A stretch of 44,721 nt of DNA, taken from assembly GCF_012272825.1 (NCBI RefSeq), contig NZ_JAAWWS010000124.1:1-44721 (forward strand), given 5' to 3'. A program made the position numbers and the translations under genes. Of this stretch, positions 13,390 to 29,844 are shown piece after piece. This stretch comes from Wenzhouxiangella sp. XN79A. Its GTDB lineage: Bacteria; Pseudomonadota; Gammaproteobacteria; Xanthomonadales; Wenzhouxiangellaceae. The first letter of the stretch is position 1. Each line of letters opens with the position of its first letter. Under the pieces are notes generated by a model, which was not told where the DNA came from, searched no databases, and was given only the letters and a program-made list of their open reading frames with translations.

Positions 13390-13650
13390 ATGGTCAAGAT
13401 CCGACTGGCACGTGGTGGTGCCAAGAAGCAGCCCTTCTACCACATCGTGGTTACCGACAGCCGCAACCGCCGGGACGGCCGCTACATCGAGCGGCTCGGC
13501 TTCTTCAATCCGGTCGCGCGCGGCCAGGCCGAGCGTCTTCGCGTCGACCTGGAGCGTTACGAACACTGGGTCGGAGAAGGCGCCCAGGTGTCCGAGCGTG
13601 TCGGCCACCTTGTCAACGAGTCGCGCAAGGCCGCCTCGGCCGACGCCTGA
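13390..13650 (+). CDS. rpsP: 30S ribosomal protein S16
   Basis: S16 is an early-assembly protein of the 30S body. The 86-residue protein begins [20 protein letters not shown], the family signature, and continues with [19 protein letters not shown], the most conserved part. The ribosome binding site AGGAG is at 13380–13384. It heads the classical rpsP–rimM–trmD–rplS cluster; rimM follows 6 nt after its stop. Confidence 0.97.
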
Positions 13651-13656
13651 TCCGGC

Positions 13657-14202
13657 ATGGGCGGTCCCCTCAAGGACGTGCCGGTCGAGGATGAGCTCAT
13701 CCCCGTCGGGCGCTTGAGCGGGGCCTGGGGTGTGGGCGGCGCCGTCAAGGTGTTTTCCTACACCGATCCGCCCGAGCAGATCTTCGAGTACCAGCCCTGG
13801 CGAACCGACGGTTCGCCAGGGCTGTTGCGTGTGCTGGGCTGGCGTCGCCAGGGGCCGCGCCTGGTCGCCGAGATCGAGCAGATCCCGACCCGCGAAGATG
13901 CCGAGCGGCTGGCGGGCCTGAACCTTTCGGTGCCGCGCTCGGCGCTGCCGCGGCCACCGGACGGGCGGTACTACTGGCGAGACCTGATCGGACTCGAGGT
14001 CGAGAACCGCGAAGGTCGACCACTGGGCCGGGTGCGCGAACTGCTCGATGCCGGCGTCCACGACGTGCTGGTCATCGATCGCCCGGGCCCGGGCGTGGAT
14101 CACCTGGTGCCGTTCGTGCGCGGCCGGTTCGTCGATTCGGTCGATCTGAAGACCGGTCGGATCGTTGTCGACTGGCAGCCCGAATGGACCGACGCGGAGT
14201 GA
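13657..14202 (+). CDS. rimM: Ribosome maturation factor RimM
   Basis: RimM binds S19 and helps mature the 30S head and process 16S rRNA. The 181-residue protein has the N-terminal RimM barrel (about 12–95; [21 protein letters not shown] is the conserved entry). The C-terminal PRC-barrel (about 100–175) begins [13 protein letters not shown] and ends in [21 protein letters not shown]. No clear ribosome binding site precedes the ATG at 13657. A GTG at 13678 (residue 8) is an alternative start, or translation may be coupled to rpsP. The stop lies just upstream of the trmD start. Confidence 0.95.
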
Positions 14203-14204
14203 GC

Positions 14205-14948
14205 GTGCTCGAAGAGATCCACGTCGTTTCGATCTTTCCCGGCTGGTTTCAATCGCTCGAAGCGCTTGGGTTGACCGGCCGTGCACTGGCCGAGCGCCGC
14301 GTTCGCCTCCGCACCTTCGACCCACGCGACTATGCCGAGGGCGTTCATCGCAGCGTCGACGACCGGCCCTACGGAGGCGGCCCGGGCATGGTGATGCGGC
14401 CCGAGCCGCTGGCGCGGGCGATCGAGGCCGCGTCGACAGGCTCCGACAGCCCGGTCGCCGCGCTGACCCCCCAGGGGAGGCCGCTCGACCAGCAGGCGGT
14501 CGAACAGCTGGCGGCCAGGCCGCGTCTGATCCTGGTCTGCGGTCGATACGAAGGCATCGATGAGCGGGTCCACGAAACCCTGGTCGACGAGGAGTGGTCG
14601 CTGGGCGACTTCGTACTGTCTGGTGGCGAACTGGCAGCCGCGGCGTTGATCGATGCGGTGGTCCGCCTGCAGCCCGGCGTGCTGGGCCACGCCGAGTCCG
14701 CAGCCCAGGATTCGTTCGCCCAGGGTCTGCTCGACTGCCCGCACTACACGCGGCCCGAGCAGTGGCGCGGGCTGGACGTGCCGGAGGTCCTGCGCTCCGG
14801 CGACCACGCGGCAATCGCGCGCTGGCGCCGCCGCCAGGCGCTCGAGCGCACCCGGGATCGCCGCCCCGACCTGATTGCCCGGCTCGACCGGGAGGACCGG
14901 CTCGATGCCACCGACCGGGCCATCCTGGCGGCATCCGATCCCGATTGA
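14205..14948 (+). CDS. trmD: tRNA (guanine37-N1)-methyltransferase TrmD
   Basis: TrmD methylates G37 next to the anticodon using S-adenosylmethionine and so prevents +1 frameshifting. Its trefoil-knot SPOUT fold is recognisable from [28 protein letters not shown] and [27 protein letters not shown] is the conserved N-terminal loop and [11 protein letters not shown] the C-terminal signature. I chose the GTG at 14205: GGAG lies at 14196–14199, and the product aligns with family starts at the first strand ([10 protein letters not shown]). The ATG at 14184 would overlap rimM by 19 nt and add seven residues. Confidence 0.95.
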
Positions 14949-14964
14949 ATCCAGGCCCCGGGGC

Positions 14965-15027
14965 TTTCGCGTGAAACGATCTTGCGTTATACTTTCGCGC
15001 TTGACTTCGCGGGCATCGTCGCCCGCG
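14965..15027 (+). promoter_or_regulatory. Candidate rplS promoter and leader hairpin
   Basis: In the 167-nt trmD–rplS gap, TATACT at 14988–14993 is a near-consensus -10 element. The hexamer 17 nt upstream (TTTCGC) is a poor -35. Just downstream, 15008–15027, is a perfect 7-bp hairpin CGCGGGC/GCCCGCG in the would-be leader. rplS may therefore have its own promoter as well as read-through from trmD. Confidence 0.45.
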
Positions 15028-15115
15028 CCGAACGGACCGACGGGATCGCCTTGACGGCCGAACCTGTCGGCGAAGCACTTGCCGAAGAATTTGCCGAGCG
15101 GACGGGATTCGCATC

Positions 15116-15478
15116 ATGAATATCATCGATCAGATCAACGCAGAACAGACCCAGCGGGAAATCCCGGATTTCGCGCCCGGAGACACCGTTGTCGTGAACC
15201 TGTGGGTTCGCGAGGGCGAACGTCAGCGCCTGCAGGCGTTCGAAGGCGTCGTCATCGCACGTCGCAACCGCGGCCTGCATTCGGCCTTCACGGTACGCAA
15301 GATCTCGCACGGCACGGGGGTGGAGCGCGTGTTCCAGAGCTACAGCCCGTTGATCGAGTCGATCACGGTCAAGCGCAAGGGCCGCGTTCGCCGCGCCAAG
15401 CTGTTCTACCTGCGCAATCTGGAAGGCAAGGCGGCGCGCATCCGCGAGAAGCTTACCGGTCGCGCTCGCGCGTCCTGA
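15116..15478 (+). CDS. rplS: 50S ribosomal protein L19
   Basis: L19 sits at the 30S–50S interface near bridges B6/B8. The 120-residue protein carries the family signature [21 protein letters not shown] (about 42–62). [26 protein letters not shown] follows it, and the protein ends in a basic tail (KLTGRARAS). The start ATG at 15116 is preceded by GGACGGGA about 7–14 nt upstream. It is the last gene of the rpsP cluster and is followed by two terminators. Confidence 0.97.
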
Positions 15479-25019: not shown

Positions 25020-25898
25020 ATGTCACGCTCCGGAATCCTGTTGCTGGACAAGCCGCCCGGCCTGACCTCGAACCAGGCGCTGGGCCGGGCCAAGCGCCTG
25101 CTCGGTCTGCGCAAGGCCGGGCATACCGGCGCTCTGGATCCGATGGCCACCGGGCTGCTGCCGCTGTGCTTCGGCGAAGCCACCAAGGTTTCGGCCTTCC
25201 TGCTCGATGCCGACAAGCGCTACCTGGCCGAACTCGAGCTGGGCGTGTCGACCGATTCGGGGGATGCCGACGGCAAGGTCATCGCGACGGCCGAGGTGCC
25301 GCCGCTGGACCGCGAAGGTCTCGACCGGCTGCTGGACCGGTTCCGTGGGCCGATCGAGCAGGTTCCGCCGATGGTCTCGGCACTGAAACACGAGGGTCGG
25401 CGCTTGCATGAGCTGGCCCGAGCCGGGATCGAAGTCGAGCGCCCGCCGCGCCCGGTCATCATCCACGAACTCGACCTGCTCGCCGTCGACGGCGCTCGGC
25501 TGGCGCTTCGCGTCGATTGCAGCAAGGGCACCTACATCCGCTCGCTGGCCATGGATATCGGAGCGGCGCTGGGCTGCGGTGCGCATCTCACGGCGCTGCG
25601 CCGGGAGCGTTCCGGGCCGTTCGCGCTGGCCGATGCGGTCACGTTGGAAACGCTGGAAGACGACGGCGAGGAGGCCGCCCGTGCCCGGATGATGCCGCCC
25701 GACCGGGCACTGCCGGGGCTGCCCTCGGTGGACATCGATGCCGATGCCGCTGCGCGGATTCGACAGGGTCAGGCGGTGCGCTGCACGGCGCCGCCGGGCG
25801 ACCCGGTGCGGATGTACAGCGAGGGGATCTTTCTCGGGCTGGGGCGGATCGACGAGCGGCAGACGCTGGGCCCGCGCCGATTGATCCATCCCGAATGA
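25020..25898 (+). CDS. truB: tRNA pseudouridine(55) synthase TruB
   Basis: TruB makes pseudouridine 55 in the T-loop of tRNAs and also acts as a tRNA chaperone. The 292-residue protein has GILLLDKPPGLTSNQAL (motif I) and the catalytic aspartate D40 in GHTGALDPMATG. KRYLAELELGVSTDSGDADG and the CSKGTYIRSLAMDIG motif follow. A C-terminal PUA-like extension spans about 235–285. It ends the rimP–truB operon. rpsO and pnp, which usually follow in gammaproteobacteria, are absent; instead the convergent ArsR-family gene ends 7 nt away. Confidence 0.96.
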   Translation: MSRSGILLLDKPPGLTSNQALGRAKRLLGLRKAGHTGALDPMATGLLPLCFGEATKVSAFLLDADKRYLAELELGVSTDSGDADGKVIATAEVPPLDREGLDRLLDRFRGPIEQVPPMVSALKHEGRRLHELARAGIEVERPPRPVIIHELDLLAVDGARLALRVDCSKGTYIRSLAMDIGAALGCGAHLTALRRERSGPFALADAVTLETLEDDGEEAARARMMPPDRALPGLPSVDIDADAAARIRQGQAVRCTAPPGDPVRMYSEGIFLGLGRIDERQTLGPRRLIHPE

Positions 25899-25904
25899 AG
25901 CGGG

Positions 25905-26297
25905 TCAGCGCTCGCCGTTGGACGGGGCGCAGAACTGTTGATAGAGCTGGTCCATGATGGCCTGGACGCCCGAATTGGCCAATCGATAGTAGATCGTCTG
26001 CTGCTCTCGACGCGTGGCGACCATGCCGCTGTTGCGCAGGATCGCCAGATGCTGGGACAGCGCCGACTGCGAAAGCGGGACGTGGCGGTTGATCTCGGAG
26101 ACCGACATTTCCTGTTCGAGCAGGTGGCAGAGAATCATCAGCCGGTGCGGGTTGGCCATCAGCTTCAGGAACTGCGCGGCATCTTCCGCGTGGCGCGCCA
26201 TTTCGGTCAGCGGCATGCCTTCGAGGCGGTAGTCTGCGGTGCTTGGTCTGGGTTCGGCTTGCGTCATCGCGGGTCCTGCCCGGTCGTGGTCGTCCAT
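25905..26297 (-). CDS. ArsR-family regulator with BigR/SqrR-type cysteine pair
   Basis: A winged-helix repressor of 130 residues. The core runs from KLMANPHRLMILC to QTIYYRLANSGVQ, with recognition helix SQSALSQHLAILRNSG. It lacks the CxC metal site of ArsR/SmtB (EMSVSEI at that position). It has two cysteines, C57 at the end of the helix carrying RLMILC and C123 in LYQQFC near the C-terminus. They are 66 residues apart, the spacing of the persulfide-sensing pair in SqrR and BigR as I recall it. A role in sensing reactive sulfur is therefore inferred. The start at 26297 has GAGG 5 nt upstream; an ATG at 26267 with AGGA is nearly as good and would shorten the protein by ten residues. The gene is divergent from the icmF-like gene and convergent with truB. 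Confidence 0.85.
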   Translation of the reverse strand: MDDHDRAGPAMTQAEPRPSTADYRLEGMPLTEMARHAEDAAQFLKLMANPHRLMILCHLLEQEMSVSEINRHVPLSQSALSQHLAILRNSGMVATRREQQTIYYRLANSGVQAIMDQLYQQFCAPSNGER

Positions 26298-26406
26298 CAG
26301 GGCCTCGCAGTGTACCGCATTCGCGATCGTTGGCCGATCCGGCACGGTCCGGCCTGGACGCCGCTCCGGGTAGAATGAACGGCTTTCCCAGCCTGGATGA
26401 GAAGCC
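26298..26406. promoter_or_regulatory. Shared divergent promoter region, arsR-like / icmF-like
   Basis: This 109-nt region separates the two divergent start codons. A TAGAAT hexamer at 26371–26376 could be the -10 for the rightward gene, without a convincing -35. Around 26325–26345 there are overlapping GATCG/CGATC half-sites that could serve as an operator. No BigR-like AT-rich palindrome is visible, so the operator assignment is open. Confidence 0.4.
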
Positions 26407-29400
26407 ATGTCCCAGAGCGCCGAATCCGTTTCCCGACGTCCCGAACGGGGCGCGGCCACGCCGCTGCGGTTCGTCACCGCCGCCAGCCTCTTCGACGGCC
26501 ATGATGCCGCGATCAACCTGATGCGACGGCTGATCCAGGCCGAGGGTTGCGAGGTCGTTCATCTCGGCCACAACCGGTCGGTCGCCGAGATCGTCCGGGC
26601 CGCGATCTGCGAGGACGCCGACGGGATCGCCGTCAGTTCCTACCAGGGCGGGCACAACGAGTTCTTCAAGTACATGGTCGATACGCTGGCCGAGCAGGGC
26701 GCGAAGCATATCCAGGTGTTCGGCGGCGGCGGCGGGACGATCACGCCGGCCGAGATCCGTGCTCTGGAGGCGGCCGGCGTGAACCGCATCTATCACCCCG
26801 ACGACGGCATGAAGATGGGGCTGGCCGAGATGATCGGCGACCTGGTCGAACGGACTCGCAAGGCCCGCGACGAGCGGGCGCAGGGCGCCGCGCGACTGCC
26901 CGGCGGCGGTGACGCGCTGGCCGCCGGCGATATCGCCGCGACGCTGTCGGCGATCGAGACCGGCAGGCTGTCGGAACACCAGCAGGCCCAGCTCGCCCGG
27001 CCGGTCGATGGCCCGGTCCCGGTGATCGGTCTGACCGGCACCGGCGGCGCCGGCAAGTCGTCGGTCACCGACGAGCTGATCAATCGCTTCCTGCAGTACT
27101 TCCCGGACATGCGTATCGCCGTGCTGGCTGTCGACCCGACCCGGCGCCGCACCGGCGGCGCGCTGCTCGGCGACCGGATCCGGATGAATACGCTGCGGTC
27201 GGACCGCGTGTTCATGCGCTCCATGGCCACGCGCCGCGCGCACCTGGCGACCTCCGAAGTCGTCCGCGACAGCCTGGAATTCCTTCGCCGCTGCGAGTTC
27301 GACCTGGTGATCCTGGAAACCGCCGGCATCGGCCAGTCGGATTCCGAGGTCGTCGACCTGGTCGATCTGCCGGTCTATGTCATGACCTCCGAGTACGGCG
27401 CGGCCAGCCAGCTCGAGAAGATCGACATGCTCGACTTCGCCGAGCTGGTGGTGCTGAACAAATTCGATCGGCAAGGCAGCCAGGATGCGCTGCGCGATGT
27501 ACGGAAACAATGGAAGCGCAACCGACTGAAATTCGACCTGGCCGATGAGCAGGTGCCGGTCTATCCGACCATCGCCAGCCAGTTCAATGACCCGGGCGTG
27601 ACCTGGATGTTCGCCAACCTCTGCCGGCTGGTGCGCGGGCTGGATCGTCGCGGGCCGCGCTGCGACTTCGAGCCGGACATCGCCGGTGAGGCGGTCGAGC
27701 CCAGGGGTACGGTGCTGATTCCGGGCCAGCGGGTACGCTACCTGGCCGAGATCGCCGAGCAGGGCCGGGCCCTGAACGCGTCGATCGCAGGCTGGGCCGA
27801 AGAGGCGCGGCGCGCCCAGCATTATTACGAGGTCCTGCGCGAGCTCGACACCGCGGGCCTTCCCGAGCCGCTGAACACGTTTCCGACGCTGCCCGACAGC
27901 GGGGAGCGCAGGCTGCTCGCCGAGCGCTACAACGAGGCGCTGAAGTCGATTCCCGAACACGCCCGCGATCGCCTGATCGGCTGGCCGGACCTGAAGGCCT
28001 CGGTCGAGGCCGACGCCTACAGCTACGAAGTGCGGGGCCGGGAAATCACCGGCTCGAACTACCGCGAGTCGCTGTCGAAGCTGCAGATTCCGAAGATCGC
28101 CGCGCCGCAGACCAGCGACTGGGGCGACCTGATGGTGTTCCTGCACAAGGAGAACCTGCCCGGGCACTACCCCTACACCGGCGGCGTTTACCCGTATCGA
28201 CGGACCAACGAGGACCCGATCCGGATGTTTGCCGGCGAGGGTACGCCCGAGCGCACCAACCGCCGGTTCCACTACCTGTCCGAGGGCCAGCCGGCGCTTC
28301 GCTTGTCGACCGCGTTCGACTCGGTCACGCTCTACGGCGAAGACCCGGCCGAGCGACCCGATATCTACGGCAAGGTCGGCAACTCCGGCGTCTCGATCGC
28401 GACCCTGGACGACATGAAGAAGCTGTACTCCGGCTTCGACCTGTGCGACCCGGCGACCTCGGTGTCGATGACCATCAACGGCCCGGCGCCGATGATCCTT
28501 GCGATGTTCATGAACACCGCCATCGATCAGCAGGTCGAAAAGCACCTGAAGGAATCCGGGCAGTGGGAGGACGCGCAGGCCAGGCGGCGTGAACTGCTCG
28601 GTGCGGACCTGCCCGAATACGCCGGCACGCTGCCGAAGACCAACGACGGCCTCGGCCTCGGAATGCTCGGCGTGACCGGCGATCAGCTGGTCGATGCCGA
28701 GACCTACGCCCGGATCAAGGCCGACACCCTGAAGGTCGTTCGCGGCACCGTCCAGGCCGACATTCTGAAAGAGGACCAGGCGCAGAACACCTGCATCTTC
28801 TCGACCGAATTCGCGCTGCACATGATGGGGGATATCCAGCAGTACTTCATCGACCACGGCGTGCGCAACTTCTACTCGGTGTCGATCTCGGGCTACCACA
28901 TCGCCGAGGCCGGCGCGAATCCGATCAGCCAGCTGGCCTTCACGCTGTCCAACGGTTTCACCATCGTCGAGTACTACCTCGCTCGCGGCATGGACATCGA
29001 TGCCTTCGCCCCGAACCTGTCGTTCTTCTTCTCCAACGGCATGGATCCGGAATACGCCGTCATCGGCCGCGTCGCGCGGCGCATCTGGGCGCGTGCGATG
29101 CGCGAGCGCTACGGCGCCAACAAGCGCTCGCAGATGATGAAGTACCACATCCAGACGTCGGGCCGCTCGCTGCACGCCCAGGAGATCCAGTTCAACGACA
29201 TCCGGACCACGCTGCAGGCGCTCTACGCGATCTTCGACAACTGCAACAGCCTGCACACCAATGCCTACGACGAGGCGATCACGACCCCGACCGAGGAATC
29301 GGTGCGGCGGGCCGTGGCGATCCAGATGATCATCAACAAGGAACTGGGTCTGAACTTCAACGAGAACCCGTTCCAGGGCAGTCACGCCATCGATCGGCTC

Positions 29401-29844
29401 ACCGACCTGGTCGAAGAGGCGGTCTATGCCGAGTTCGAGCGCATTTCCGAGCGCGGCGGTGTGCTCGGCGCAATGGACACCATGTACCAGCGCAGCAAGA
29501 TCCAGGAAGAGTCGCTGTACTACGAACACAAGAAGCACGACGGTTCGTTGCCGTTGATCGGGGTCAACACCTTCCTGCCGCCCGAGGGGGCCGAGCAGGA
29601 AGGCGGCGAAATCGAGTTGATGCGCTCGACGACCGACGAGAAGGACCAGCAGGTTGCCAACGTCCGTGCCTTCCAGCGGCGCAACACCGCTGAGGGCGAG
29701 CAGCGGCTGGCGAGGCTTCAGGACGTCGCGCGCGAGCGGGGCAATACGTTCGAAGCCTTGATCGAGGCGGTCAAGCGGTGTTCGCTCGGCCAGATCAGCC
29801 ATGCGCTGTACGCGGTCGGCGGAGAGTATCGACGCAACATGTAG
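26407..29844 (+). CDS. icmF: Fused B12-dependent acyl-CoA mutase with G-protein chaperone domain (IcmF-like)
   Basis: A 1,145-residue fusion that rearranges the carbon skeleton of a branched or linear acyl-CoA (isobutyryl-/n-butyryl-CoA in characterised IcmF). The order is diagnostic. A B12-binding domain (about 20–155) has FDGHDAAIN, in which H32 ligates cobalt. A MeaI/ArgK-type GTPase (about 200–450) has the P-loop [12 protein letters not shown] at 208–219 and VLNKFD. The TIM-barrel mutase (about 560–1145) has [20 protein letters not shown] and [14 protein letters not shown] (catalytic-type H831). The residue aligning with methylmalonyl-CoA mutase Arg207 is Gln793, as in IcmF; the one aligning with Tyr89 is Tyr595, where IcmF has Phe. 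A loop of about 60 residues (712–775) is longer than in the enzymes I remember. The exact substrate is uncertain. Confidence 0.9.

Follow-up and report, generated by a model that had tools for sequence, protein, structure and literature searches.

An ArsR-family regulator beside icmF in Wenzhouxiangella sp. XN79A that probably acts in trans on sulfur genes

In Wenzhouxiangella sp. XN79A, icmF, the gene for a fused isobutyryl-CoA mutase, lies divergent from a gene for an ArsR-family regulator with a pair of cysteines. A preliminary description of this DNA took the regulator to be a BigR/SqrR-type sensor with icmF as its target, and the locus thus raises the question of what the regulator senses and which genes it controls. 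We analysed the whole stretch of DNA that carries the pair (44,721 nucleotides, hereafter the window), which is one whole contig of the 3.75 Mb, 171-contig genome (G000), together with a panel of 61 genomes, 37 of them from the host family (G000-G036). The regulator gene, here called arsR1, is open on the minus strand from an ATG at 26297 to a stop codon at 25905-25907 (Table 1), and the end of truB lies 6 bases from this stop. Many orthologues seem by eye to begin at the equivalent of Met11 (window position 26267), which would put the true start 30 bases downstream of the ATG at 26297. The product has an ArsR-type helix-turn-helix (PF01022, 55 bits). Translation bore out the description of a protein without CxC and with exactly two cysteines 66 residues apart, C57 (RLMILC) and C123 (LYQQFC), and the divergent gene is indeed that of a B12-dependent acyl-CoA mutase, IcmF. 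In the AlphaFold model of the regulator (mean pLDDT 82), C57 falls within a helix spanning residues 50-58 and C123 ends a helix spanning residues 109-123. Elsewhere in the window (13390-15478), rpsP-rimM-trmD-rplS directly follows rpoC, an order that differs from that of E. coli.

Table 1. Features of the arsR1-icmF locus, in window positions.
Feature	Coordinates	Strand	Basis
arsR1, HlyU/SqrR/YgaV-type ArsR regulator, 130 aa	25905..26297	-	ORF, PF01022 and BigR-model matches, PDB relatives
Cys57 codon, helix 2	26127..26129	-	translation, alignment, model
Cys123 codon, end of helix 5	25929..25931	-	translation, alignment, model
Predicted DNA-recognition helix, residues 77-89 (QSALSQHLAILRN)	26031..26069	-	alignment and model
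Possible arsR -10 element TACACT	26309..26314	-	by eye
arsR-icmF intergenic region, no match to clade operator TTAG-N6-CTAA	26298..26406	.	matrix scan
Possible icmF -10 element TAGAAT (relatives TAAAAT or TACAAT)	26371..26376	+	by eye
icmF, divergently oriented gene for a fused isobutyryl-CoA mutase, unlikely to be a target	26407..29844	+	NF045497 1675 bits, cut-off 1500
truB, convergent neighbour of arsR1	25020..25898	+	TIGR00431

A search of PDB sequences with the window protein ranked HlyU first (1.2e-24, 3.3e-22 and 5.6e-22), followed by SqrR (4.8e-20 and 6.4e-20) and then NolR, BigR and YgaV; SmtB and other metal sensors were weaker (2.5e-10 or worse). Foldseek analysis of the model placed HlyU, SqrR, BigR, NolR and YgaV ahead of SmtB and CzrA. 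By both sequence and fold, the nearest solved relative is HlyU, closer than SqrR or BigR. As the preliminary description had led us to expect, phylogenetic analysis grouped the window protein with HlyU, SqrR, BigR and YgaV: 67 of the 73 rows in the tree were separated from six outgroup ArsR proteins with support of 96/98, a tree of 97 columns with long outgroup branches that splits the group from the outgroup and leaves its inner order unseparated. The score against NF040642, the NCBI BigR equivalog, was 96.5 bits, below the curated cut-off of 155. Passages of PMC10509353 describe the persulfide sensors of cluster 4 as carrying a single cysteine in each of helices 2 and 5, and the traits given there for this SSN cluster, namely the helix 2/helix 5 pair and the lack of a metal-site CxC, are those of arsR1. 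The genomic tie of this kind of regulator to sulfur genes runs through orthologues, homologues and the operator described below, and not through the inside of the window. Sequence, fold, tree, cysteines, neighbours and operator thus place arsR1 with the dithiol reactive-sulfur sensors HlyU, SqrR, BigR and YgaV. The proposed BigR/SqrR-type assignment holds as to group, but sequence and fold put the protein nearest HlyU, and its sub-cut-off BigR score sets it apart from BigR proper.

Clear orthologues of arsR1 were found in 31 of the 37 family genomes; the gene was absent from G001, G004, G007, G008, G012 and G032, but G007 has a more distant homologue (54%). All 31 orthologues carry the cysteine pair, with a spacing of 66 residues in 30 and 67 in one; the pair is also present in all but one of another 31 homologues or paralogues, and C57 and C123 are invariant in an alignment of 33 of these 62 sequences. 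Judged by its retention in 31/31 orthologues, the pair is more than a chance occurrence, and its assignment to the positions of the redox pair, helix 2 and helix 5 in the model, is upheld. The recognition helix is mostly invariant in the same alignment, which spans arsR1 orthologues and homologues of other families linked to sulfide:quinone reductase (SQR). As NolR is among the near relatives, arsR1 might instead be a redox-silent, NolR-like repressor with structural cysteines and DNA binding ungated by sulfur. We regard this as very unlikely, because both cysteines are invariant across orthologues and across homologues linked to SQR or persulfide dioxygenase (PDO), and because the regulon that emerges below consists of sulfur genes.

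The arsR1-icmF divergent pair is present in 29 of the 31 genomes with arsR1, with varying genes on the far side of arsR1; in G009 and G013, icmF lies elsewhere. Outside the family, such an ArsR was found beside icmF at none of the 80 loci listed (tblastn, E 1e-6), for which flanks of up to 3 kb were analysed and at least 600 bases upstream were available in 75. These two counts indicate that the pairing is real and, in what was searched, family-specific. All 37 family genomes have icmF or icmF fragments, including the six without arsR1. In two genomes of the same genus, G004 (99% complete, icmF 90% identical) and G001 (99%), truB and icmF are immediate neighbours without an intervening arsR, and icmF keeps a TAAAAT -10-like box; no SQR, PDO or YgaP-like match was found in either genome.

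We then asked what this pairing means for icmF as a target. When the intergenic region was scanned with the matrix for the clade operator TTAG-N6-CTAA described below, the best score was -9.2 bits (P = 0.89). Across the 29 arsR-icmF intergenic regions, two reached P < 0.05, about the level of chance, and a role for icmF as target via this operator was unsupported. A de novo search for palindromes in the same regions was also set aside as too weak, with the best half-sites in 5 of 29 regions compared with 3-4 in 20 rounds of shuffling. Among the literature titles listed for ArsR or persulfide with isobutyryl-CoA mutase, none was relevant. Repression or activation of icmF by arsR1, which would tie reactive sulfur to B12-dependent acyl-CoA metabolism, would fit a divergent pair that persists in 29/31 genomes despite the varying genes beyond arsR1, and shared half-sites such as TTGAT-N4-ATCAA point weakly the same way, although descent also explains such sharing. 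We nevertheless hold control of icmF to be unlikely: the clade operator did not exceed chance in the intergenic regions, G001 and G004 have icmF without arsR1 and with the truB-icmF order intact, G009 and G013 have arsR1 without an adjacent icmF, and the flanks of the outside-family loci listed held no such ArsR. It is similarly doubtful that arsR1, besides acting on sulfur genes, touches the icmF promoter by a weaker or different site or by a shared divergent-promoter effect; if it did, reactive sulfur would tune the B12-dependent interconversion of isobutyryl-CoA and butyryl-CoA in one bacterial family. arsR1 may stay next to icmF because the divergent arrangement is frozen, because a weak site has escaped notice or because the two genes share promoter effects. 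A separate TGCATC/TTCATC element recurs between arsR1 and icmF in some relatives, including a TGCATCA-N4-TGATGCA dyad at locus L091, while the window has no clear copy; a different regulator of icmF might bind there.

The preliminary description had noted that sulfide genes were not near. This is correct for the window, where none was found among the proteins scanned by profile and the remainder was judged by eye, but not for some relatives in the family, in which the orthologue lies beside Blh-type or YgaP-like genes. In G009, arsR1 is flanked on one side by a gene with a sulfurtransferase domain, beyond which lies a PDO gene. The distance from arsR1 to a YgaP-like gene after it is at most about 0.5 kb in G015, G019, G030 and G035, and at most about 2.5 kb in G016, G024, G026, G028 and G033. 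Analysis of 24 regions from other families of the order (L048-L071) revealed SQR, PDO, rhodanese, YeeE-type or YgaP-like genes near the ArsR gene in at least 13, with neighbour identities assigned partly by eye and representative proteins by HMM. The PDO part of Blh in relatives scored 94-378 bits against NF040641, below the full-length cut-off of 625, and the SQR-like protein 94 bits against NF049943 (cut-off 525); rhodanese and YgaP-like transmembrane matches exceeded the Pfam cut-offs and YeeE-type matches fell just below.

Co-occurrence across the family gave a similar picture. At least one of the YgaP-like, SQR and PDO genes was present in 30 of the 31 genomes with arsR1 compared with two of the six without it (Fisher P = 0.001, a value that overstates independence because relatives share ancestry). 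At 90% completeness or more, the counts were 20/20 and 1/5 (P = 0.0004). G005 was counted on partial matches and weak SQR and PDO matches were left out; G003 (83% complete) has arsR1 and no YgaP-like, SQR or PDO match. Taken singly, YgaP-like genes were associated with arsR1 (P = 0.0007), and the associations with SQR alone (P = 1.0) and PDO alone (P = 0.39) were not significant. Sulfur genes thus accompany arsR1 while icmF occurs with or without it, which argues that the sensor goes with sulfur genes and not with icmF.

The candidate operator, the palindrome TTAG-N6-CTAA, was first spotted by eye in sulfur promoters of the family (the discovery set), and a pattern scan located it beside ArsR genes of other families. 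A matrix was made from 11 sites outside the host family and tested against dinucleotide shuffles. With one locus left out at a time, 18 of 31 upstream regions of homologues or second paralogues passed at P ≤ 0.01 and 13 failed. Among upstream regions of sulfur loci in the host family, 17 of 22 passed (14/14, then 3/8); the site was missing before PDO in G010, G022, G013 and G012 (both copies). Eight of the 17 are the discovery set (SQR of G000; PDO of G009, G011, G021, G027, G029 and G031; the second ArsR of G010) and another three had come up in pattern scans (G020, G002 and the YgaP-like gene of G000), the G002 site preceding the gene next to PDO and not PDO itself. Fresh SQR upstream regions from G014, G015, G010, G018 and G032 all passed (5/5). 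For YgaP-like genes, 19 upstream regions were tested of the 30 matches listed and 18 passed (P ≤ 0.007), the failure being a different YgaP-like type in G013; when the four already met by pattern scans (G000, G006, G018 and G023) are set apart, 14 of the remaining 15 passed. The G000 YgaP-like region sits in both counts, 17/22 and 18/19.

We also inspected 26 exact-pattern sites. Eleven precede YgaP-like, MMPL, SQR, PhsA-like or rhodanese genes and one lies by PDO (G002). About 14 have no apparent sulfur link, and five of these exceed 20 bits (L086, L190, L198, L199 and L201; the L086 site, by eye, precedes a DsrE-like gene). Some non-sulfur copies are expected, since an 8-base pattern was sought over whole genomes (0 to 42 per genome). 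In E. coli, ygaV has two tandem sites (23.2 and 20.2 bits, P = 0.008), which begin 24 and 40 bases ahead of the ATG; passages of PMC9774250 place the start site of ygaV 28 bases ahead of its ATG and report that a YgaV footprint covers the promoter. The HlyU operator of hlyA, as given in passages of PMC4330345, scored 17.3 bits with our matrix, a raw score that carries no significance value. No operator sequence was found in the passages of PMC5823870 and PMC12423496 that were consulted. The 500-base upstream regions of arsR1 itself contained no site passing P ≤ 0.01 (0/30), which suggests that, unlike many of its kin, arsR1 is not autoregulated in this way.

Within G000, the exact pattern occurs once, at C28:43775 on a contig other than the window, before a gene for an SQR-like protein (109 bits to NF049943); this operator (C28:43773-43790) scored 25.1 bits. 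The looser pattern WWTWAG-N6-CTWAWW occurs twice, the second time at C5:88006 (88006-88023, 21.5 bits), between a YgaP-like transmembrane gene, followed by eye by a DUF3365-like gene, and a divergent gene for an MMPL-like transporter. The MMPL call comes from a relative that matches PF03176 and shares 48% identity with the protein; an NCBIfam scan of the first 500 residues gave nothing at 1e-20. Both sites, by eye, fall in the stretch that separates the -35 box from the -10 box, a position that suits a repressor. The PDO of G000 (51% to the query, NF040641 394 bits) is preceded by a weak site (7.8 bits, P = 0.007). The sites at SQR and at the YgaP-like/MMPL pair, set beside the lack of one at icmF, count against icmF as the target. 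Rarity of the exact pattern in G000 was dropped as evidence because the backward control was common (1 versus 17) and composition explains much of the difference; for the looser pattern, the counts were 2 versus 0. The window protein was the only cysteine-pair ArsR found in this genome. Two other PF01022 proteins share 30-34% with it and lack the helix-2 cysteine, and four more HTH_20 matches, by eye, are unlike such an ArsR.

The link between arsR1 and TTAG-N6-CTAA is indirect, and arsR1 might have drifted to another target while an unseen regulator owns the operator. The arsR1 promoter without an operator fits this possibility, as does G032, a genome 85% complete that has SQR with a site and in which no arsR1 was found. 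We nonetheless consider such drift improbable, given the mostly invariant recognition helix, the co-occurrence of arsR1 with sulfur genes, and the sites in G000, G009, G011, G020, G021, G027, G029 and G031, where arsR1 is the sole close homologue among the matches listed. Taken together, the computed results (the position of the two cysteines, the clade, the operator sites, the missing operator at icmF and the co-occurrence) make it likely that arsR1 is a dithiol reactive-sulfur repressor that acts in trans on sulfur genes and sits beside icmF without controlling it by TTAG-N6-CTAA. By analogy with characterised relatives, from which DNA binding, repression and persulfide chemistry are carried over, reduced arsR1 dimers would bind a palindrome of approximately ATATTAG-N6-CTAATAT or CTTATAT between the -35 and -10 boxes. 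Bound arsR1 would block SQR, the divergent operon of the YgaP-like transmembrane and DUF3365-like genes with the MMPL-type transporter gene, and perhaps PDO. In the presence of persulfides, Cys57 and Cys123 would become linked, arsR1 would leave the DNA, and the handling of sulfide and sulfane sulfur would be induced. The regulator may also respond to other oxidants.

Several further observations were made at these loci. A second cysteine-pair ArsR paralogue is present in five family genomes (L088:6831-7280, L089:3662-4015, L038:7818-8171, L045:160-504 and L047:656-967). In G010 and G014 it lies beside a PHO4/PiT-type permease gene and a YgaP-like gene and has a TTAG-type operator of its own; in G017, G034 and G036 it is downstream of MMPL-type genes. 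Operator-like sites of 17.5-23.9 bits precede genes for a PhsA-like molybdopterin oxidoreductase (L184:2730, L187:2884 and L189:2927) in G016 and, by eye, in G024 and G026; none of these three genomes has a strong match to SQR or PDO. In two families, genes for MMPL/RND-type transporters are also immediately preceded by operators (L081:5104, L083:13265, L183:2611 and L059:8054), and these transporters are perhaps sulfur-responsive exporters of unspecified cargo. Genes for Glu/Leu/Phe/Val-type and acyl-CoA dehydrogenases lie near sulfur genes or arsR loci (L088:3348-5725, L038:9748-12201, L107:9834-12098 and L086:12280-14667); going by location, a tie of branched-chain acid breakdown to the sulfur regulon is possible.

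Phylogenetic footprinting can test a prediction made from a gene's neighbour, here that reactive sulfur controls a B12 mutase, and in this case the prediction fails. TTAG-N6-CTAA is a testable operator for one order of Gammaproteobacteria, for the promoter of E. coli ygaV and, to some extent, for the HlyU site as it appears in the published passages. With it, sulfur regulons could be catalogued even when the regulator gene is isolated, with candidate members of little known role among the YgaP-like membrane proteins, the DUF3365-like protein, the MMPL transporters and the PhsA-like molybdoenzyme.

Among characterised systems, HlyU of Vibrio (PDB 4k2e, 4ooi, 3jth and 5znx) is the best match to arsR1 in sequence and fold, with the same cysteine pair and 48-49% identity over 89-96 columns (Foldseek). 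Passages of PMC10509353 describe it as a sensor of persulfides in which a tetrasulfide forms. The hemolysin gene under HlyU is activated, whereas the candidate sites for the arsR1 kind overlap sulfur-gene promoters and are read as repressor-type for that reason. SqrR of Rhodobacter capsulatus (PDB 6o8k-6o8o) shares the cysteine pair and fold at 40-43% identity, below HlyU. Its deduced site, ATTC-N8-GAAT in passages of PMC9774250, has the same spacing of the outer ATT and AAT as ATTAG-N6-CTAAT but differs in the inner bases. BigR of Xylella (PDB 3pqj and 3pqk) likewise has the cysteine pair and the fold; arsR1 in the window differs in sharing no operon with Blh, and resembles BigR in that PDO or Blh-type genes are among the putative targets in the host family. 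YgaV of E. coli K-12 shares with arsR1 the cysteine pair and has a YgaP-type target, as is proposed for arsR1, the YgaP-like genes of the arsR1 family matching YgaP in its membrane domain, the one part compared. The ygaV gene shares an operon with ygaP, and YgaV acts on the promoter of its own gene, whereas arsR1 stands apart from its putative targets, behind a promoter without the operator.
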